DNA of 64,000 nucleotides from Lachnospiraceae bacterium (GTDB lineage: Bacteria; Bacillota; Clostridia; Lachnospirales; Lachnospiraceae). Positions 7,582 through 44,362 of the stretch are shown in pieces. Made by a program: the position numbers and the translations under genes. The first letter of the stretch is position 1. The number at the start of each line of letters is the position of its first letter. The stretch spans positions 1 to 64,000 of the forward strand of contig JAGAPO010000069.1 in NCBI GenBank assembly GCA_017623215.1, in the 5' to 3' direction. Below the pieces are notes generated by a model that was not told where the DNA came from, searched no databases, and was given only the letters and a program-made list of their open reading frames with translations.

Positions 7582-8745
7582 ATGAAGAGAATCTTTTTAA
7601 TTGTATTGGACAGTGTTGGAATCGGTGCGGAACCGGACGCAGCTTGTTACGGGGACGAAGGGAGCAACACGGTAAAGGCGGCGGCAAAGAGCGAATTCTT
7701 TTCCATGCCGAATATGAAGAAGCTGGGACTGTTTGCGATTGACGGAATGCGCGGAATGTATCCGGAGGAACCGTTTGAGGGTGCGGTTGCCAGAATGCAG
7801 GAAGCGAGCAAGGGAAAGGATACAACGATCGGCCACTGGGAGATCGCGGGAATTATTTCGGAACGGCCGCTGCCGACGTTTCCGAATGGATTTCCAAAGG
7901 AGCTTTTGGCAGAATTCGAAAAGAGAACCGGAAGGAAAGTGATCTGCAATCTGCCCTATTCCGGAACTGAGGTGATTAAAGATTACGGAAGAGAGCATAT
8001 GGAGACCGGAGCGCTGATTGTCTATACCTCGGCGGACAGTGTATTGCAGATTGCAGCGCATGAAGCTATCGTACCGATTGAACAGCTGTATGAATACTGT
8101 GAGACTGCAAGAGAGCTGTGTATCGGTGAATGGGGAGTCGGCCGCGTGATTGCGAGACCCTTCGAAGGGGAATATCCGAACTATACGCGGACTCCGAGAC
8201 GGCACGATTATTCCCTGCTTCCGCCGAAGACGACGATGCTGAACCAGCTGAAAGACGCCGGAAAGAATGTGATTGCGGTTGGAAAGATTAACGATATCTT
8301 TGCGGGAAGCGGAATTACCGAGGCGGTGCGGACGGCGAATAACGAAGAGGGAATTGAGCGGACGTTAGAATATATGAAGAAAGAATTTGACGGACTGGTG
8401 TTTACGAATCTGGTTGATTTTGATATGATATACGGACACCGCAATGATGTGGATGGATATGCGAAGGCGTTAACCTATTTTGATTCCAGGCTTCCGGAAT
8501 TGCTTGCGGGACTTGGAGATGAGGATCTCCTGATGATCACGGCGGATCACGGCTGCGATCCGGCGACACCGTCCACGGATCATTCCAGAGAGTATGCGCC
8601 GCTTGTGATCGCAGGGCCGCGCGTGAAAGGCGGGGGGAATCTCGGAACCCGTCCGACCTTCGCGGATATCGGAGCGACGGTGCTTGCGTATTTTGGAATC
8701 GGACCGGAGATTGCGGGAGAATCGTTATTAAATAAAATCATATAA
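7582..8745 (+). CDS. deoB: Phosphopentomutase
   Basis: A 387-residue cytoplasmic, Mn-dependent enzyme that interconverts (deoxy)ribose 1-phosphate and 5-phosphate in nucleoside salvage. It is an alkaline-phosphatase-superfamily protein with the expected sites: '[12 protein letters not shown]' (metal Asp, residues about 9-19), '[11 protein letters not shown]' containing the phosphorylated Thr, '[15 protein letters not shown]', 'TADHGCDP' and 'DHSREYAPL'. Length is normal for DeoB. ATG 7582 has GGAGGG four bases upstream. No other nucleoside gene is adjacent; dtd follows after 88 bases. Confidence 0.96.
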
Positions 8746-8833
8746 GATAGGTGCGGATGCGTGCCGGACTGCTGCAGCGGATGCATGCCCGAAGGTTGGG
8801 AGCCGTTGTGTGGGAAAAGAATGGAGGCTTATC

Positions 8834-9295
8834 GTGAGAGTTGTAATACAAAGAGTGAAAAAGGCGGAGGTATCCGTCGAAGGAACAGTAATCGGAAAAG
8901 TGGGACTTGGGTATCTGGTGCTGCTCGGCGTTGGGGAAGGAGACGATGAGCAGACCGTAAGAACCTATGCGGATAAGATGCTCAAGCTTCGAATCTTTGC
9001 GGATGAGAACGGAAAGACGAACAAGTCACTTGCGGATGTGGGAGGCGGATTGTTGATTGTATCCCAGTTCACCCTGTATGCGGACTGCCGCAAGGGGAAC
9101 CGTCCGAGCTTTGTAAAAGCCGGAACCCCGGAACGGGCAAAGGAGCTGTACGAATATTTTACCGCGTACTGCACAGAACAGGGATATGAGGCGCAGACCG
9201 GAGAGTTCGGAGCGCATATGGAGATATCGCTGGTCAATGACGGACCGTTTACTATTGTGTTGGATGAATCGCTGGCGGCGGGGCATACGGCGTGA
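8834..9295 (+). CDS. dtd: D-aminoacyl-tRNA deacylase
   Basis: A 153-residue DTD1 enzyme that removes D-amino acids (and glycine from tRNA-Ala) from tRNA, a translation quality-control step. Visible motifs: 'MRVVIQRV' start, 'SQFTLYAD' carrying the catalytic-site Ser-Gln, 'GNRPSF', and '[11 protein letters not shown]' in place of the usual NDGPVT. The start is GTG at 8834 with GGAGG 6 bases before it; ATG 8810 would add eight residues and lacks a ribosome site. A branched hairpin with a T-run follows. Confidence 0.95.
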
Positions 9296-9302
9296 ATGAG
9301 AT

Positions 9303-9374
9303 GACAGGTGTTGCCGATTAGCAGAACGATTGGATAGCCGATCGTATTGCAGCAAGGCTTCGCCTGTCTTTTTA
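9303..9374 (+). terminator. Terminator of dtd
   Basis: GACAGG (9303-9308) pairs with CCTGTC (9363-9368), closing a long structured loop, followed directly by TTTTTATTTT. It separates dtd from the phosphate regulon. Confidence 0.7.
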
Positions 9375-9410
9375 TTTTGTCAATTTTCATGTAAAACCAC
9401 TCCTGTTGAA

Positions 9411-9465
9411 TTTACCCAGTTTTTACAACCACACGAAGGTACACTTTACACAACTGCCATATAAT
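9411..9465 (+). promoter_or_regulatory. Candidate PHO boxes and -10 of the pst operon
   Basis: TTTACC (9411), TTTACA (9422) and TTTACA (9445) lie 11 and 23 bases apart on one face of the helix, upstream of TATAAT (9460-9465). This resembles the TT(A/T)ACA direct repeats bound by PhoP/PhoB-type regulators in Firmicutes. No good -35 is present at 17 bases, as expected for an activator-dependent promoter. Confidence 0.5.
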
Positions 9466-9540
9466 GAATTCGTAATCAAAAGAAAGCAGAACTATAACAG
9501 GTCCGGGAAGGACCGGGAAGTAAAAGAGGAGAATACGATT

Positions 9541-10485
9541 ATGAAGAAGTTATTAGCAGTTGTATTAACATGTGCATTAACAGTTGCGTCTCTGGCTGGA
9601 TGCGGCAACAGCGGCAGCGAGGGAACAACAGCAGGAACGACAGCGGGAACAACCGCAGAGGGAACTACTGCAGGAACAACAGCGGCAGCATCCAATTTCA
9701 ACACAGAGAAGAGCATTTCGGTTATTTCCAGAGAGGACGGCTCCGGTACAAGAGGTGCGTTCATCGAGCTGATGGGCATTGAGGTAAAGGGCGAGGACGG
9801 AACCAAGACCGATATGACAACCGTAGAGGCTGATATCGCAAATAAGACGGATGTTATGATGACCAGCGTTGCAGGCGACAAGTACGCAATCGGTTATGTA
9901 TCTCTCGGAAGCATGAATGACACGGTAAAGGCAGTTAAGATTGAAGGCGTAGAGGCAACCAAGGAGAACATCGTGAACGGAAGCTATGCAGTTGCAAGAC
10001 CGTTCAACATTGCAGTAAAGGGTGAGGCAGAAGGCCTGACCAAGGATTTCATCGACTTCATCTTAAGCAAGGAAGGTCAGGAAGTAATTGCAAAGGATTA
10101 CATTGAGGTAGTTGCGGATGCAGAGCCTTATGCAGGAACGAAGCCCGAAGGAACCATTACGGTAGCTGGTTCTTCCTCCGTATCCCCCATCATGGAGAAG
10201 TTAATTGAGGCATATGCAGAAGTGAACCCGAATGCAACCATCGAGCTTCAGACAAGCGATTCCACCGCTGGTATGACCGGTGCGGCAGACGGCACCTGTG
10301 ATATCGGAATGGCAAGCCGTGAGTTAAAGGACAGCGAGGTTGAAAAGGGTCTGACCGGTATCCAGATTGCACTTGATGGTATCGCGGTTATCGTAAACCA
10401 GGAGAATCCGGCAGACGATTTAACCAAGGAGCAGGTAAGACAGATTTACACCGGCGAAGTAACCAAGTGGGCTGACGTTCAGTAA
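9541..10485 (+). CDS. pstS: Phosphate-binding lipoprotein PstS, circularly permuted
   Basis: A 314-residue lipoprotein that captures phosphate outside the membrane for PstCAB. The signal peptide ends in the lipobox SLAGC (Cys21), followed by a Gly/Thr-rich linker. The mature domain is in an unusual order: the half with 'ISREDGSGTRGAF' (residues about 62-74), normally in the second half of PstS, comes first, and the half with 'VAGSSSVSP' (about 206), 'IGMASRELK' and 'ALDGIAVIVN', normally first, comes last. Every segment is present once, so this is a circular permutation and not a loss. GAGGAG sits upstream of ATG 9541. Confidence 0.93.
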   Translation: MKKLLAVVLTCALTVASLAGCGNSGSEGTTAGTTAGTTAEGTTAGTTAAASNFNTEKSISVISREDGSGTRGAFIELMGIEVKGEDGTKTDMTTVEADIANKTDVMMTSVAGDKYAIGYVSLGSMNDTVKAVKIEGVEATKENIVNGSYAVARPFNIAVKGEAEGLTKDFIDFILSKEGQEVIAKDYIEVVADAEPYAGTKPEGTITVAGSSSVSPIMEKLIEAYAEVNPNATIELQTSDSTAGMTGAADGTCDIGMASRELKDSEVEKGLTGIQIALDGIAVIVNQENPADDLTKEQVRQIYTGEVTKWADVQ

Positions 10486-26729: not shown

Positions 26730-26818
26730 AAAAGACGGTCATAAGGAAGAAAGGCTGCATTTTATGCAGTTATCGCGGCTGTATGCCGCACCATAAAATA
26801 TTTCAAAGGGGAAATCAT

Positions 26819-28012
26819 ATGGGAAGATTAGTTGGTACGATATCAAGAGGGCTTCGCGCGCCGATTATTCATCAGGGCGACGATATAGCCGAAGTAGTTG
26901 TAGATGCGGTGCTTGCCGCTGCGGAAAGCGAACCGATTACGCTTCGTGACAGAGACATTGTGGCGATGACGGAATCCATTGTTGCAAGAGCACAGGGGAA
27001 TTACGCGTCGATTGATGATATTGCGGAGGATGTACGCGAGAAGTTCGGAGATAATACCATTGGAGTTATTTTCCCGATCCTGAGCCGTAACCGTTTTGCA
27101 ATCTGCTTAAAAGGTATCGCAAGAGGTGCGAAGAAGATCGTGCTGATGTTAAGCTATCCGTCCGATGAAGTGGGCAATCACTTTATTACAGAGGACGAGC
27201 TGGATGAGAAGGGTGTGAATCCGTGGAGTGATGTGCTGACCGAGGCAGAGTTCGTCAAGATTTTCGGTAATCCGGTTCATGAGTTCACCGGAGTGAATTA
27301 TATTGAATATTATTCGGAGCTGATCCGCGAGGAGGGCGCAGAGGTTGAGGTTGTTATGGCCAATAATCCGACTGCGATTCTGAAATATACGGATTGTGTG
27401 CTCAACTGCGATATCCATTCCAGATTCCGCACCAGAAGACAGTTAAAGAGAGCCGGTGCGAGAATTGTATATGGTCTGGATGAGATTATGACAAAGCCCG
27501 GCAAGCTCGGCGGCTGCAACGAGACGTATGGTCTGCTCGGTTCCAACAAGGCGACCGAGGAGACGGTTAAGCTCTTCCCGAAGGACTGCAAAGCCTTAGT
27601 GTGCCGCGTTCAGGAGATGCTGTACGAGAAGACCGGCAAGAAGCTTGAGGTTATGGTATACGGTGACGGCGCGTTCAAGGATCCGGTCGGAAAGATCTGG
27701 GAGCTGGCGGATCCGGTGGTATCGCCCGGTTATACGGATGGTCTCGAGGGAACGCCCAATGAGATTAAGTTAAAGTTCCTTGCGGACAATCAGCTTGCTG
27801 ATTTAAGAGGTGAGGAGCTGCAGAAGGCGGTTGCAGAGGCAATTAAGAGTAAGGATGCTGACCTGAAGGGACAGATGATTACCCAGGGAACAACGCCGAG
27901 AAGACTGACCGACCTGATTGGATCGCTGTGTGACCTGACGAGCGGAAGCGGAGATAAGGGAACGCCGATTATCCTGATTCAGGGTTACTTCGATAACTAT
28001 GTAGATGAATAA
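26819..28012 (+). CDS. CofE-like (coenzyme F420-0:L-glutamate ligase-type) protein
   Basis: A 397-residue cytoplasmic protein whose N-terminus ('GLRAPIIHQGDDIAEVVVDAVLAAAE', 'LRDRDIVAMTESIVARAQG') matches the F420-gamma-glutamyl ligase fold. True CofE adds glutamate to F420, but this is longer, and no other F420 gene is in view; clostridial members of this family are of unproven function. AAAGGGG precedes ATG 26819. It is a single-gene transcript with its own promoter and terminator. Glutamylation of another cofactor is possible but is only inference. Confidence 0.75.
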   Translation: MGRLVGTISRGLRAPIIHQGDDIAEVVVDAVLAAAESEPITLRDRDIVAMTESIVARAQGNYASIDDIAEDVREKFGDNTIGVIFPILSRNRFAICLKGIARGAKKIVLMLSYPSDEVGNHFITEDELDEKGVNPWSDVLTEAEFVKIFGNPVHEFTGVNYIEYYSELIREEGAEVEVVMANNPTAILKYTDCVLNCDIHSRFRTRRQLKRAGARIVYGLDEIMTKPGKLGGCNETYGLLGSNKATEETVKLFPKDCKALVCRVQEMLYEKTGKKLEVMVYGDGAFKDPVGKIWELADPVVSPGYTDGLEGTPNEIKLKFLADNQLADLRGEELQKAVAEAIKSKDADLKGQMITQGTTPRRLTDLIGSLCDLTSGSGDKGTPIILIQGYFDNYVDE

Positions 28013-37443: not shown

Positions 37444-37483
37444 AGTAAAATATTTAATAATGCAGTAAAATATTTAATAATGC
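37444..37483. repeat. Exact 20-bp tandem repeat before the surface-protein cluster
   Basis: AGTAAAATATTTAATAATGC occurs twice head to tail (37444-37463, 37464-37483), about 20 bases before the -10 box of the downstream cluster. The unit length of two helical turns fits paired binding of a regulator. Confidence 0.75.
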
Positions 37484-37592: not shown

Positions 37593-38486
37593 ATGAGAAA
37601 AGCTACGAACTACAGAAGGTTCGCCTTTCTCCTGACGTGGCTGTTATTGTGCATAGGATGTGGCGGCCGGTCGGATACAGCAGCGGATGGACAGAATCAG
37701 GAAGGAACGCTCCGGGAAGGAAATGCGCAAGCCGCAGGGAATGCGGTTCAAGAAAAGGATGCCGCTTACGAAAAGGAGGCAGCTTACGCAGATGCCGCAG
37801 CTTATGCAGATGCCGCAGCTTATGCAGGAGTCGGCGCAGTACAGGGGGGTGTTTTGGAGGTATCAGAAGTATCGGAATTGGAATACGGCAAAGTGGTCTG
37901 GTCGTATACGTTTGACGAGGAGCAGGGGAATACTCCGTTCCAGACAGGAGAGCGGACGGAGGAGGGAGCCTGGCAGATCAAAGAAGAGCAGGAACGCTCG
38001 ATCTTCGGCGCGCAGGCAAGTAAGTTCTACGATTACCGGGTTCAGATTGATTTTGCCTATGGGGAGGTGGAGCCATCAGAGCCCAATACCATCGGCCTGT
38101 ATACCAGGGCACGGGAGAGTCTTCTGTACGGAGACTTCTTTTATGGATTGTATGTGGAGAACGGGAACAGCCTGCGTTTGACGAAGTGCGTATGCTCTGA
38201 GGAGACTGCCCTGCATACGGTGGAGCTTACGGACTCCGTGTGGGATGGGGAATGGCACACGCTCATGGTGGATGCGTTTGATGAGTACCTGATTGTGCGG
38301 CTGGACGGAGAAGTTGTGATGAACTATCTGGAACACAGCGGTGATTCGATTTTGTTCGGAAAATGTGGGTTCTCTTCGCAAAAGACCGATGTGACGATTG
38401 ATAATTATATTGTGACCAGAATTACAGATCCGCTCGGCGGAGATGAGGATAATAAGCTTGGCGGCAATTTTGACGTGGAATGGTAA
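37593..38486 (+). CDS. Lipoprotein with a LamG/concanavalin-like domain
   Basis: A 297-residue lipoprotein; lipobox 'LLCIGC' near Cys23. An Ala/Tyr/Asp/Glu-rich low-complexity linker with near-repeats ('AAYADAAAYADAAAYAG', about residues 57-78) leads to a beta-sandwich domain: 'VVWSYTFDEEQGNTPF', 'FYDYRVQIDFAYG', 'DSVWDGEWHTLMVDAFDEYL' and 'VRLDGEVVMNY'. That pattern is typical of laminin-G/concanavalin-like sugar-binding folds. A very similar domain ends the next protein. AAGGAGG precedes ATG 37593. It is the first of three adjoining surface genes; ligand unknown. Confidence 0.78.
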   Translation: MRKATNYRRFAFLLTWLLLCIGCGGRSDTAADGQNQEGTLREGNAQAAGNAVQEKDAAYEKEAAYADAAAYADAAAYAGVGAVQGGVLEVSEVSELEYGKVVWSYTFDEEQGNTPFQTGERTEEGAWQIKEEQERSIFGAQASKFYDYRVQIDFAYGEVEPSEPNTIGLYTRARESLLYGDFFYGLYVENGNSLRLTKCVCSEETALHTVELTDSVWDGEWHTLMVDAFDEYLIVRLDGEVVMNYLEHSGDSILFGKCGFSSQKTDVTIDNYIVTRITDPLGGDEDNKLGGNFDVEW

Positions 38487-38506
38487 GAAAGGGGGAGACA
38501 ATGGTG

Positions 38507-41500
38507 ATGCGGGAATATGAAAAAGGAAGGACGAGGGAACATCGCTTTCCAAAATCGGCAGGATATCTGCTTATAGCTGTGTTGTGGATCCTGGCAGGTC
38601 TGACCGGTCTTAACAGGGCTCCCTTTGCCGCTGCGGCAGAGAGCAAAGCGGAGACGCCGTACCTGTATTACACCGGGAATACCTGGAGCGAGCCGGGCGA
38701 GATCGCTCTGGTGCATGGATACCGGCTCGATCTTATTACCTCTGTGGAGATCCTTCGTTTGGACGATACCGGAGCGGAGACAGAGCCCGGTTACATCGTG
38801 CGTACCAGCTATGAGTCTCTTCCGACGGAGGAAGAGATCGCGAATGCGTCGGAGCCAGAATGGAATGCCGCGAAAGCACAGGAGCTTGCGATTCTGCAGC
38901 AGACGGAGAATTCGGTGAAGTTCCTGATTCCGGATACCCTGCAGGACGGGGTGTTCGCCGTCCGGTTAAATTACGCGCGGGGAGCCTTATTTTATTACCT
39001 GAACGCGCCGGATGTGCGCTGGGTACAGGGAGATGAGGGAAGCATTGCTACCCCCGGCGGCTGGCTTCGGGTACAGGGCAGCTGCCTGACCGTGGACGAG
39101 AAGAATTCGGATATTAGGGCTGCTCTGCTCCCGGTGAACGGAGGCGAGCTTATTCGCCTGACGCCGGATACCGTATATGATACGCATTCGGTGAAATTCC
39201 GGATACCGGAGTCGGTTCCGATGGGAGAGTATCAGGTTCTGTACTATAACGGCTGCGGAAGCCAGACTGCGTGGAGTACACCGCATTTCATCACGATTGG
39301 TGTCTCGCCAAGAGAGAGCTGGCCGACCGATGTCTTTAATATTCTGGACTACGGCGCGGTGAATGACGGAACGCAGCGCTGCAATGCGGCAATGGTGAAC
39401 GCATTGGCGGATATCGAAAAGAACGGAGGCGGAGTGCTGTATTTTCCCGCGGGGCGGTACCTATTCACGAGCGGGCAGTTTGATATCCCTGAGAATACGG
39501 TGGTAACCGGCGAATCCATGGAGGCGACGCTTCTGATGTGGAGCCCGCTTGATTGGGATATCGGGGAAATGCCGAAATATATCTTTGCGGGAAGGCGCAA
39601 CCTTGCGTTTGAGAATCTCACCTTTGCCGGAGCAAGAGTTGTTGAATTCATGCAGCTTGGCGAAGAGGATCCTTCGCTTGCGCTCGATGCGGCACTTGGA
39701 ATTACGGATTCGGAGCCGTTCGCAAATATCTATATCCGGAATTGTCGGATTAATTTTAATAATAAAAATGGAATCGATACCTCAAAAGAGGGGGTTACCG
39801 AGGCACTAAATAGTGAGATATCTTCCGGCGCGAATGATACGACAGTGGGAATCGTAGGGGAAAATGTGCAGATCGTGGATAGTGAGATCCTGTCCGGAAC
39901 CGGCCGTTATATGGTTGTTCAATTAACGAACTCCCTGGTTCAGAATATTCGTGTGACGAGCAGCTGGAATGGTTTTTATGGCGAGAACACCATCTTTGAG
40001 GATTGCGGGATGGGAAATACGACGCTTGGAACCGCAGGGAACAATCTGTATATTGCGCGGATTTCCATTATCGATCATCTTGGAAATAACCGGGAGACGA
40101 TGACGACGGATGGAGGAAATGGGCGGTACCGGGGGCAGATAGAGGTGGCGGATGATGGGGTTACCGTAACCCTAACTTCAGAAGCCGGATTTGGTTCCCA
40201 GGCGGGAAAAGGGCTTGGTGCGGTTCTGTATATTATCTCCGGAACCGGAGAGGGGCAATACAGAAGAATTATCGAATACCCGGAATCCAATGTCGTCATT
40301 TTAGAAGAGCCGTTCTACATAGAACCGGACGAGACGTCCCTGATTCAGCTGGGATTGGAGGAAAGAAATTCGGTCTATTTTATTGACTGGACGGTATATA
40401 ACAGCGGAGACGTGCAATTCTACGGGTTCCAGACGAATTCGGTAATCGAGGGCTTTGATGTGCAGAGAGCTGCCGGTATGTGGATGCGCGGAGGAAATCT
40501 GTACGATGCGGTTCAGGTTGACTGGTATAATTCCATTGAGAATAATTCGTTTACCGATTCGAACTATTTTAAGAATCATGGAATGGGAGATACGCAGAAT
40601 CGCTATACGTTGGTTCAGATACAGGCAAACGGGAATTATGGCACAATCAACCTTGGCAGCATGATTCGCAATAACACGCTCCTGGATGGTGCATATATGG
40701 CAATCAGCGCGACAAGCGGAAAAGAAAGTATACAGAACCTTGTGATTCAGGGCAATTCCTTTGAGGGCGCCGTCGGAGCGGCGCTTGGATTGGGCGCGGG
40801 AAGCAAAGCGGTAGACGGTGTTTTGCTGCGAAACAATTCTTTTGAGAATGTGGCTGCGGAATATTCCTATAACAGCCAGGCGCTTACAGAAAAGAATGAG
40901 CTCGGATTTCTCAGAATTCTCTTCTGCGATGAGGAGGGCAATTCGGTCATGCCGTCTGCCTCTTACTCCTCTCCGGGTGAGGCGGTATATGATGACTATC
41001 AGGAGCTTGCCGTGGGAGAGCTTCTGTATGAATGGGAGTTCGAGCATAGCACGAATCCGCTTGGCTTCGGGACTCTGACAGAGGAGGGTACGGTGCGGTA
41101 TCAGGGAGATACCTTCGTCCCGGTGCAGGCAGAAGAGGAGCTCCTTACGGATTCCTATGTCAGTATTGCGTTCCGCAGCGACGAGGAGAAGCTTTCCGGA
41201 CAGAAGAATCAGCTTTATTTGATCACCCGATATCTGGAGAATGGTATCTATGGAGATGCTGTGAATGTCACACTGACATCGAATGCCGGCTATTATGCGA
41301 CGATAGAAGACGGTAGAACCTTATGTTTGCAGCGTGTAACGCTCGGACATTCGAACGGGCTGAAAACGCTTTGCAGCGTTGCGCTTTCGGAGAGTGTGTG
41401 GGACAATGAGTGGCACACACTTGCGATTGGAGCAGTGGGCGAACAGCTGAATGTCTGGCTGGACGGAGAACTGCTGATAGAATATATCGACCATACTGGG

Positions 41501-41599
41501 GCCGCTTGTCGGATAGGAACGGCTGCGGTCGCGGTAACGCAGGGAGTGATAGAGGTGGATCATCTGCTTGTGGCAGAGCTGTCAGCGAAGGAGGAGTAA
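38507..41599 (+). CDS. Giant secreted right-handed beta-helix protein (Pectate_lyase_3-like) with C-terminal LamG-like domain
   Basis: About 1030 residues. A basic head and hydrophobic segment (about residues 18-43) form a signal peptide or anchor ending 'FAAAAES'. Then an N-terminal module ('YYTGNTWSEPGEIALVHGYRL'), an IPT-like region, and at about residue 275 the Pectate_lyase_3 start 'VFNILDYGAVNDGTQ' and 'NGGGVLYFPAGRYLF', followed by a long parallel beta-helix. The last about 200 residues repeat the LamG-like fold of the upstream lipoprotein ('ESVWDNEWHTL', 'VWLDGELLIEYIDH'). ATG 38507 is best spaced from GGGGGAG; ATG 38501 is possible. It probably binds or cleaves an acidic polysaccharide. 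Confidence 0.8.
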   Translation: MREYEKGRTREHRFPKSAGYLLIAVLWILAGLTGLNRAPFAAAAESKAETPYLYYTGNTWSEPGEIALVHGYRLDLITSVEILRLDDTGAETEPGYIVRTSYESLPTEEEIANASEPEWNAAKAQELAILQQTENSVKFLIPDTLQDGVFAVRLNYARGALFYYLNAPDVRWVQGDEGSIATPGGWLRVQGSCLTVDEKNSDIRAALLPVNGGELIRLTPDTVYDTHSVKFRIPESVPMGEYQVLYYNGCGSQTAWSTPHFITIGVSPRESWPTDVFNILDYGAVNDGTQRCNAAMVNALADIEKNGGGVLYFPAGRYLFTSGQFDIPENTVVTGESMEATLLMWSPLDWDIGEMPKYIFAGRRNLAFENLTFAGARVVEFMQLGEEDPSLALDAALGITDSEPFANIYIRNCRINFNNKNGIDTSKEGVTEALNSEISSGANDTTVGIVGENVQIVDSEILSGTGRYMVVQLTNSLVQNIRVTSSWNGFYGENTIFEDCGMGNTTLGTAGNNLYIARISIIDHLGNNRETMTTDGGNGRYRGQIEVADDGVTVTLTSEAGFGSQAGKGLGAVLYIISGTGEGQYRRIIEYPESNVVILEEPFYIEPDETSLIQLGLEERNSVYFIDWTVYNSGDVQFYGFQTNSVIEGFDVQRAAGMWMRGGNLYDAVQVDWYNSIENNSFTDSNYFKNHGMGDTQNRYTLVQIQANGNYGTINLGSMIRNNTLLDGAYMAISATSGKESIQNLVIQGNSFEGAVGAALGLGAGSKAVDGVLLRNNSFENVAAEYSYNSQALTEKNELGFLRILFCDEEGNSVMPSASYSSPGEAVYDDYQELAVGELLYEWEFEHSTNPLGFGTLTEEGTVRYQGDTFVPVQAEEELLTDSYVSIAFRSDEEKLSGQKNQLYLITRYLENGIYGDAVNVTLTSNAGYYATIEDGRTLCLQRVTLGHSNGLKTLCSVALSESVWDNEWHTLAIGAVGEQLNVWLDGELLIEYIDHTGAACRIGTAAVAVTQGVIEVDHLLVAELSAKEE

Positions 41600-41602
41600 C
41601 GC

Positions 41603-44362
41603 ATGAGGAAGGGATCGATTCAAAAAAGAAGGCTTAGAATGGGACGAATCCGGAAGGCCGGAATATCCGTATTGCTGTTTGCGGCATTGTTCTGCCTATC
41701 TGTGATTTCTGCCTTTCCGTGGAAGGATTCCCCGGTACAGGCAGCAGAGGCAGGTTCTGGGACGAAAGAATCGGTAGGAGTGTCTCAGACTTTGGAGGCG
41801 GACAGAGCGCCGATGGTCTATTACAGCGGACAGACCTGGCTGATGCCGGGAGATATCGTTCAGATACAGGGCGCAGGGCTTCGCAGCCTTACTTCGGTGA
41901 GATTACAGCTTCTTAAGACATCGCAGGAGTCTGCGGAAGAGAATGGGACGACTGCGCCGGATTCCGGTGAACTGCAGACTTTGCTGGACGAATCGGCTTC
42001 GATACAGAGCTCCGGCAAAAGCGCATGGAACCGCAGCGGTTCCTATTATGAACTGGAATTGCTCCAGAACACGGACAGCTCCGTAAAGGTTGCGGTTCCC
42101 TCACAGCTTCCTTCGGGACAGTATCTGGTGTGTCTGAAAAATAAAGCGGGCGAGACGTATCTCGTACTGAATGCGCCTTCTATTCAATGGATGCAGGGGG
42201 ATAACGGCGAGAGTGCGTCCCCGGGAGGCTGGATTCGGATCCAGGGGACGCACCTGAGTCTGGGAAAGGACGGGCAGCAGGCGAATCCGGAAGAGGCAGA
42301 GCAGCAGGAAACAGGACGGGAAGAGGCAGAGCAGCAGGCAGTGGGCAGCGCCTTTGCGATTGTAACCGATTCCGCAGGGAATACGGCCGCCTATCCGCTT
42401 GATGAAATCAACGAGAATTCGGTGTCACTTTCTGTGCCGGAGACGATGGCGGAGGGAATGTATACCGTGAGTGTCTGCAATGGCTTCGGTCCGGTATTCA
42501 GCAATACACAGACAATTCGGATTGAGGCTCCGGTTCGGGATTCCTGGGCGACCGAGGTATTTAACGTTATGGATTACGCAACGGATACCGCAGATGGCAG
42601 CACGTACCTTGACTATGCGTTTCACGCGGCAATCGATGCGGCGGAAGCGAACGGCGGCGGAATCGTGTATATCCCGCAGGGACGCTATCCGCTCCGGGAT
42701 TCCTATGAAATCCCGGACAAGGTCGTAATTCGCGGGGAAAGCGCAGAGAAAGCGCTGCTGTTCTGGATGCCCTACGAGTGGACGGCCGGCAATCTGCCGG
42801 AGTCTGTCTTACGGGCGCGAGGGGCAGTCATTCTGGAGAATCTGACGATCTCCGGCGGACGAATCGGGAATCTCCTTACGGCCTCCGGAGAGAGGACGAT
42901 CGTGCAAAACTGTCGGTTCCATTTTTATTCGATGTCAGGATATGCGACCGCAAATGATACCCCTGGGAATCTGAATGCACAGGCATTGATCAACCTGGAA
43001 ATGGGAGAGGATAATTCGGATATACTTCGAATCAGCGGGAAGAACGTCACGATCACAGATTGTCAGATCCTCTCCAGCGGGCGTCCGTTTGTGCTGGACG
43101 GAGCTTCTTACATATATATGAGTAACGTAGTATTTCCTGTGAGCAGCCATGAGGAGAGGAACGCCTCGGCCAGATGGGTGGAGAACGTGATCTTTGAAAA
43201 TCTGGAATTTCAGAGTACCGGTGTGGAGCTGTCCGGTTCAAAGCTCTATGTCGCGGATTCCTCCTGGGATAACAATCAGGGAGGAATGCGGGAGACGTTA
43301 GTGATTGGAGAAGAGACGGCAGATGTGCTGAGGGGAAGCTTTGATGCAAAGTCTCTGACTCTGACCCGCAACCGCGGGGAAGAGACGCAGGCGAATGATT
43401 TGGAAAAAGAGACGCATACGACCGGCTTGGAGGAATCGGAAAGCGGCAGCGAGAGCAGACGTTACGAGGGAATGGCAGTCTATGCCCTGACCGGTCCGGC
43501 GAAGGGGGAATCCAGACGGATTGTATCCTGGGACACTCCGGATACTTTGATTCTGGAATCCGCATTTACGGCTGTACCGGATGCGGATACTCTGTATGCG
43601 GTCGGATACGAACAGGATTCGATCTATCTGAATGGACTTGATGTGTACAGTTCCGGAACCATAGCCTTCCGGGGACTTAACAGCCGTACGATTCTGGCGA
43701 ACAGTACCTTCCGGCTGTTTTCCGGGGTCTTAAGCTATGATGGGGAGGTTACGGAGGAGGTGAGAACGGACGCAGGAAATACCGGCGCAGCTGCGGAAAT
43801 GACGGAATCTTTGGATGCCGGTACGACATCGCTCAACTGGTATCTGTCGATTGTGGACAATCATATTCTGGACAGTAACTGGATGCGAGCCTACGGCCTT
43901 GATAGCGAGAACCGCTGCACGATCCTCGACATCATCAGTGACGGAATGCCGTCCTCGATGCTGGGCATCCTTGTGCGGGAGAATGTGCTGGAGCATGGAG
44001 CATTCGTGTCCGTGGCATCAGCGAACGCAGACGGAATGGAGAACGTGCTTCTGCAGGGGAATACCCTCACGGGAAACGCAAAGATTGCGCTCACTGCTGC
44101 AGACGGAGCGGCAGATGCGATTCTGTGCGCGGCGAATACCTTTGAGAAGGAAGGGAATACCTACCGGTATTCGGAAGAGTTACTGACGGCTGTGAATGAA
44201 TATGGAGAGCCGCGGGCGGCATTCTTATCTGTGATTCCGGACGCGGAAGCAGCTTCCGGCAGGATGCCGGTTCTGATTGCAGCGGGGAGCACGGCAGCGC
44301 TGCTGGTGTTAGCGGGAGGAATTGCCGTGTTCTGCCGAAGAAAGAAAAAGAACACGCACTGA
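41603..44362 (+). CDS. Second giant beta-helix protein with C-terminal membrane anchor
   Basis: 919 residues, homologous to the upstream protein. After a signal peptide (about residues 19-48, 'SPVQAAEA') comes the same N-terminal module ('YYSGQTWLMPGDIVQIQGAGL'), then the Pectate_lyase_3-like start 'VFNVMDYATDTADGS' and 'NGGGIVYIPQGRYPL' with a long beta-helix. In place of the LamG tail it ends in a transmembrane helix and basic tail ('VLIAAGSTAALLVLAGGIAV', then 'CRRKKKNTH'), so it stays on the membrane with its helix outside. There is no LPxTG. Only 3 bases separate it from the upstream gene. Function unproven. Confidence 0.8.
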   Translation: MRKGSIQKRRLRMGRIRKAGISVLLFAALFCLSVISAFPWKDSPVQAAEAGSGTKESVGVSQTLEADRAPMVYYSGQTWLMPGDIVQIQGAGLRSLTSVRLQLLKTSQESAEENGTTAPDSGELQTLLDESASIQSSGKSAWNRSGSYYELELLQNTDSSVKVAVPSQLPSGQYLVCLKNKAGETYLVLNAPSIQWMQGDNGESASPGGWIRIQGTHLSLGKDGQQANPEEAEQQETGREEAEQQAVGSAFAIVTDSAGNTAAYPLDEINENSVSLSVPETMAEGMYTVSVCNGFGPVFSNTQTIRIEAPVRDSWATEVFNVMDYATDTADGSTYLDYAFHAAIDAAEANGGGIVYIPQGRYPLRDSYEIPDKVVIRGESAEKALLFWMPYEWTAGNLPESVLRARGAVILENLTISGGRIGNLLTASGERTIVQNCRFHFYSMSGYATANDTPGNLNAQALINLEMGEDNSDILRISGKNVTITDCQILSSGRPFVLDGASYIYMSNVVFPVSSHEERNASARWVENVIFENLEFQSTGVELSGSKLYVADSSWDNNQGGMRETLVIGEETADVLRGSFDAKSLTLTRNRGEETQANDLEKETHTTGLEESESGSESRRYEGMAVYALTGPAKGESRRIVSWDTPDTLILESAFTAVPDADTLYAVGYEQDSIYLNGLDVYSSGTIAFRGLNSRTILANSTFRLFSGVLSYDGEVTEEVRTDAGNTGAAAEMTESLDAGTTSLNWYLSIVDNHILDSNWMRAYGLDSENRCTILDIISDGMPSSMLGILVRENVLEHGAFVSVASANADGMENVLLQGNTLTGNAKIALTAADGAADAILCAANTFEKEGNTYRYSEELLTAVNEYGEPRAAFLSVIPDAEAASGRMPVLIAAGSTAALLVLAGGIAVFCRRKKKNTH

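Follow-up and report, generated by a model that had tools for sequence, protein, structure and literature searches.

A three-gene beta-helix and ConA-like cluster of a Lachnospiraceae bacterium as a probable secreted glycan-degrading unit

The catalytic motif of AlgE epimerases is DPHE, which is also visible in the AlgE sequences matched here, and GH28 polygalacturonases are marked by NTD, G/QDD, GHG and RIK motifs. The pneumococcal protein PfbA has a beta-helix fold and no detected enzyme activity (PMC3718772), and in a Bacillus subtilis exo-acting enzyme the CBM66 module is a binder of terminal fructosides whose removal cuts levan activity about 100-fold (PMC7833758). We compared with these systems a cluster of three genes, P1, P2 and P3, in a stretch of 64,000 nucleotides (the window) from a chicken-gut Lachnospiraceae bacterium, which the original prediction had read as one extracellular system that holds or cleaves a glycan or acts as an adhesin. 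Nothing relevant to the P1-P2-P3 architecture was found in the literature, nor any measured activity of a member of the helix family. Our analysis supports a single extracellular system, and we consider it reasonably probable that this is a secreted glycan-degrading unit, in which beta-helix protein(s) would be the enzyme and a ConA-like protein the targeting partner.

Layout and setting of the cluster

All three adjoining genes were confirmed as open reading frames on the forward strand (+), on which every cluster feature given below also lies: P1 (37593..38486, 297 aa), P2 (38480..41599, 1039 aa) and P3 (41603..44362, 919 aa). P2 starts 7 nt within P1 and is therefore probably translationally coupled to it, P3 starts 4 nt past the end of P2, and GGAGG-type ribosome sites are clear for P1 and P3. 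P1 has a signal peptide, a repetitive linker of AYADAA type encoded by 18-bp repeats (37752..37827), and a ConA-like (CBM66-like) beta-sandwich domain with a DPLGGxxDN tail (37938..38477), recognised by a partner HMM (103.9 bits), by alignment and by fold. Its signal sequence ends LLLCIGC-GG, with Cys23 as the candidate cysteine; the signal sequence of the proposed lipoprotein is thus present, and because the lipobox is imperfect, with a Cys at -3, lipoprotein status is likely but not certain. P2 is predicted to be secreted and consists of an N-terminal beta-rich module that opens YYTGNTW and resembles Ig/IPT-like domains (DUF4469/TIG-like; 38645..39319), a right-handed beta-helix from the PF12708 region onward (39323..40879), and a C-terminal ConA-like domain homologous to P1 by partner HMM and BLASTP (41003..41584). 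P3 shares the Ig-like module and helix and ends, as had been proposed, in a membrane anchor (44264..44359), a hydrophobic stretch followed by RRKKK; it has no LPxTG, and its Gram_pos_anchor score of 12.4 bits lies below the cut-off of 20.

AF2 models were obtained for P2 and P1. P1 is modelled as a beta-sandwich, with CBM66 structures (4b1m/4azz, E 5.7e-9, TMt 0.74-0.78) as its best Foldseek matches in the PDB and many other ConA-like folds ranking close behind. P1 thus has the CBM66-type ConA sandwich by fold and lies outside the CBM66 sequence family: the partner profile found no sequence-level match to CBM66 chains, so that fructoside specificity is not implied. LamG-type Pfam profiles match in the cluster below cut-off only. 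The LamG-like fold said to be common to P1 and the end of P2 was borne out by homology, P1 matching the last 200 residues of P2 with BLASTP E 1.4e-19 (29% over 197 aa). The P2 model is mostly confident over residues 56-800 and poor beyond 800; since pLDDT of the ConA end is <50, the fold of that end rests on homology to P1.

The cluster has the GC content of its surroundings. Upstream of it, on the opposite strand, is a spermidine-type ABC transporter, and downstream comes the Rnf operon. As the original prediction had it, no transporter belongs to the cluster, and no GH or regulator gene was found within the three-gene cluster either. The clustered sugar transporter, regulator and glycosidases that characterise Gram-positive polysaccharide utilisation loci are not seen in the window, although some of these components accompany several paralogues and relatives. 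No Rfam element was detected in the cluster region, and Megablast gave no plasmid match for the cluster. The AT-rich promoter region upstream of P1 contains a direct repeat of two perfect head-to-tail 20-bp copies (AGTAAAATATTTAATAATGC; 37444..37483). The presence of this tandem repeat was confirmed, and its suggested role in dedicated control, as a shared regulatory element, was dropped because the genome holds no second site at <=2 mismatches, the only other sites having 3 mismatches. Elsewhere in the window, which comes from a Lachnospiraceae-type genome, positions 26783-28012 encode a protein of the F420-0:gamma-glutamyl ligase family (PF01996).

The ConA-like partner and the spread of the family

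Paralogues in the same genome carry the ConA-like region fused to the helix, as a two-domain ConA-like region followed by a YxGNTW module and then the helix. In the sister species (G001), which is of the same genus, a helix gene is directly preceded by a separate gene of 453 aa that encodes this region; a 462-499 aa ConA-like gene stands in the same position in Bacteroides cellulosilyticus, B. stercorirosoris, Runella and a Bacteroidales MAG, and a 522-532 aa version occurs in two rumen Clostridia. The B. cellulosilyticus partner has sub-threshold matches to DUF1349 and to a 3-keto-disaccharide hydrolase-type profile. Across the loci collected, L023, L024, L025, L026, L043, L035, L040 and the window have the partner gene immediately ahead of the helix gene, with gaps of -10 to +14 nt, and a fusion of the two occurs in L009, L011, L012 and L022. 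The partner is thus adjacent or fused in 13/47 helix genes and in 0/55 lower-scoring pectate-lyase-like genes of the same loci set (Fisher p 1.5e-5, with loci that are not independent); P3, which is preceded by P2, is counted among the 13. The partner HMM seeds were drawn from family loci, so that this count is somewhat favoured; L022, L035, L040 and P1 were detected by the HMM though they were not seeds.

The alignment of P1 covers the latter half of the partner, including the tail DPLGG-x-x-DN-LGG, so that P1 is a reduced (truncated) partner. P1 thereby corresponds to the C-terminal half of a two-domain ConA-like protein that is widespread, and P2 carries a second copy at its own C-terminal end. 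The 'short' paralogues of the same genome and members from the PVC group are without this partner. PVC-group and Armatimonadota members have C-terminal LamG_3/ConA-type domains instead, which indicates that the pairing of a helix with a ConA-type sandwich is a repeated theme.

At least nine helix proteins are encoded in the genome: three fused ones (1242-1255 aa), three clustered on contig C64, one on contig C107, and the pair in the window. No homologue was found at E<=1e-30 in G002 or in 58 other family/order genomes, nor at E<=1e-40 in 397 other phylum genomes (1/398 positive), and the sequence comparisons point to a patchy spread with local expansion. The domain sharing and the pairwise synteny of partner and helix hold in relatives. 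Conservation of the three-gene layout was not supported, the layout being found in none of the 58 family/order genomes and missing at the syntenic site of G001, where the potA/potB and rnfC flanks are 67-87% identical. The same flanks around different genes mean that the unit either is a variable insertion or has been lost from G001. At that rnfC-potA site (L182:4590-6877) a MinD/NifH-like ATPase gene region takes the place of the unit. A BspA-type leucine-rich-repeat lipoprotein-like gene (L010:11937-13646) lies within an array of three short helix paralogues.

The beta-helix family and its probable activity

The helices of P2 (35.1 bits) and P3 (30 bits) exceed the curated cut-off of 27 for PF12708 (pectate-lyase-like beta-helix), a profile matched by 44/44 family members at E<=0.001; among these 44, Pfam gave no curated GH, PL or epimerase family match over the helix. 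On profile scores, and for P2 also on its model, both proteins are placed in the PF12708 pectate lyase-like right-handed beta-helix superfamily. The top solved-structure matches of the P2 model are GH110, GH28, AlgE epimerase and GH87, with TM-scores of about 0.2-0.5, which fix the fold class and leave the mechanism unassigned; the structural comparison suggested by the original prediction thus gave a fold class. The GH110 fold match (E 1e-11 to 1e-8) has a TM-score of only 0.2-0.35, and its sequence match is confined to an NGGG segment. GH28 polygalacturonase membership was rejected, since the NTD, DD, GHG and RIK motifs are absent from the P2 helix and there is no GH28 Pfam match.

An alignment of the 44 sequences, from several phyla, identified nearly invariant candidate active-site residues, numbered as in P2. 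Glu507 (codon 39998..40000; 93% conserved) and Glu539 and Asp544 of an NNRExxTxDGG motif (40094..40111; E/D in 98% and D in 95%) are candidate catalytic acids, and Gln593 and Arg595 belong to a GxGxGQxRRI motif (40256..40264; 98% and 100%). The candidate acids are conserved from Bacillota to Bacteroidota, Planctomycetota, Verrucomicrobiota, Lentisphaerota and Armatimonadota, and the secondary structure of the model would set Glu507 and Glu539-Asp544 within about two consecutive helix turns. The predicted sharing of module and helix by P2 and P3 was confirmed (E 1.4e-96 across the Ig-like and helix region, 28-31% identity, PF12708 in both), and the tree (support 100/99) indicates tandem duplicates. 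P3 diverges fast (branch 1.63 vs 0.73) and keeps equivalents of Glu507, Glu539, Asp544 and Arg595, with Glu in place of Gln593. Conserved columns are kept at 67/72 in P2 and 61/72 in P3, and the reading frames are open. These retained acids and columns leave P3 as a dead copy unsupported, and its Gln593-to-Glu change and long branch suggest that it may differ in specificity.

The surroundings of relatives point to glycan degradation. Dockerin type I domains are present on three rumen homologues (L030, L031 and L040), and the operon of L040 also has a gene for a cohesin. Neighbouring genes encode GH29 (L025, L034, L035 and L040), GH78 (L030), GH106-like (L041), GH38 (L026) and GH2 (L013) proteins; GH3, GH127 and esterases (L043); a sialate-type esterase (L023); and GDSL/SASA esterases. 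Genes for ABC sugar-type transporters, identified from resemblance in sequence and from their order, lie near L029, L035, L040 and L045 and near the own-genome paralogues L009, L012 and L014. The dockerins and GH neighbours favour an enzyme over a binder or adhesin, and so narrow the choice that had been left between the three. Counted for glycan degradation were the recurrent partner pairing, the dockerins and cohesin, the GH and transporter neighbours, the GH-type folds and the conserved acids; counted against it were the low TM-scores to solved enzymes, the window cluster's lack of GH, transporter and regulator genes, the same fold in PfbA with no detected activity, and the partnerless members.

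Three arrangements were observed alongside. One rumen Clostridia operon (L040:3479-12820) has adjacent genes for a cohesin-domain protein, the ConA-like partner and a helix protein with a dockerin. GH29, GH20 and a transporter of ABC sugar type are encoded next to them, in what is possibly a minimal scaffolded unit. L009, L012 and L014 each combine ABC sugar-type permeases with YIP1-like membrane proteins and with DUF5696 proteins, NHL-repeat proteins or both, a recurring cassette that in two cases comes with fused helix paralogues; we know of no function for DUF5696. Genes for a FAD-dependent oxidoreductase (PF12831) turn up repeatedly close to helix genes of unrelated phyla (L023:1-900, L026:12391-14679, L038:129-1538, L041:7477-8784 and L043:12377-14665), the domain having been tested in 4/5 loci and the L026 gene called by resemblance to L043.

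In the favoured reading, P2 and probably P3 would belong to an uncharacterised family of carbohydrate-active enzymes built on a right-handed beta-helix; most likely they would be glycoside hydrolases, with Glu507, Glu539 and Asp544 as the acids used. P1 would be a surface-held ConA-like (CBM66-like) module binding glycan and/or enzyme, and it may contact P2 physically. With P3 holding one copy at the membrane, P1 probably lipid-held and P2 secreted, products would be freed near the cell and could be imported by sugar transporters encoded elsewhere. The mix of fucosidase, rhamnosidase, arabinofuranosidase and esterase neighbours suggests a branched heteropolysaccharide, no single substrate recurring; the substrate would be a complex heteropolysaccharide, probably one bearing deoxyhexose or arabinose. 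It is conceivable, though on balance doubtful, that partner and helix form one obligate two-subunit enzyme of a new CAZyme family, P1 then being a reduced surface-held subunit for duplicated helices.

Of the solved structures, PfbA is one of those nearest to the helix in sequence (3zpp/4mr0, E about 2e-16 to 3e-16) and also in fold, and, as a surface adhesin of no detected activity, it invites the reading, which we consider unlikely, of a non-catalytic helix with a PfbA-like glycan-binding surface, tethered to the cell by P1 and P3. The membrane anchor and fast divergence of P3 agree with such an adhesin, whereas the dockerin-bearing relatives, the glycosidase and esterase neighbours and the strict conservation of acids and Gln/Arg across phyla suit an enzyme better. 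The best profile matches of the helix are AlgE6 and AlgE4 mannuronan epimerases (E 8e-23 and 1e-20), and PF12708 includes epimerase-like proteins, both of which speak for a lyase or C5-epimerase acting on alginate- or pectin-like uronates. AlgE-type membership was nevertheless rejected, as DPHE is absent from P1-P3 and the columns aligned to it hold no conserved Asp, His or Glu; unsaturated-uronyl hydrolases (GH88/GH105) were likewise unseen among the Pfam-scanned neighbours, and a uronate-active enzyme appears quite improbable. That the proteins derive from phage tailspikes, or that the insertion is decaying and now serves no role, is very improbable: many viral beta-helix models fit the fold, the family is rare and the unit is missing at the same site in the sister species, but viral-contig matches mostly cover the short NGGG segment and not the whole module, frames are open, most conserved columns are retained, and cellular loci conserve the partner gene.

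Relation to known systems

A ConA-like binder and an Ig/beta-helix protein thus make a recognisable two-protein unit across phyla, sometimes on cellulosome-type scaffolds, that carries no curated enzyme family name; if it proves to be a new glycosidase family, an annotation gap in gut and rumen glycan breakdown would be filled. The type strains of Bacteroides cellulosilyticus and B. stercorirosoris carry the pair, which makes activity and substrate directly testable; in B. cellulosilyticus DSM 14838 its two genes occupy 8583-9971 and 9971-12301 of L043.

PfbA resembles the window proteins in fold and surface location, but is sortase-anchored by LPXTG, whereas they lack that motif and have a ConA-like partner. 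The A-modules of AlgE4 and AlgE6 share the right-handed beta-helix and give the best profile match; they have DPHE, which the window proteins are without, and the latter add Ig-like and ConA-like domains in another genomic setting. The GH110, GH28 and GH87 glycosidases are matched in fold, and the window helix also has conserved acids, but identity is 8-13%, TM-scores are low, and Pfam finds neither GH28 nor GH110. CBM66 is like the P1 domain in fold, at about 14-16% identity, and is attached to GH32, whereas P1 is partnered with a beta-helix. Cellulosomal enzymes of rumen Clostridia bear dockerins, as L030, L031 and L040 do, unlike the window proteins, which would be held by a membrane anchor and probably by lipid. 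The unit is therefore of a known kind, a beta-helix carbohydrate-active protein with a CBM-like partner, and what is new is the conserved pair, its split and fused forms, and its glycan context.
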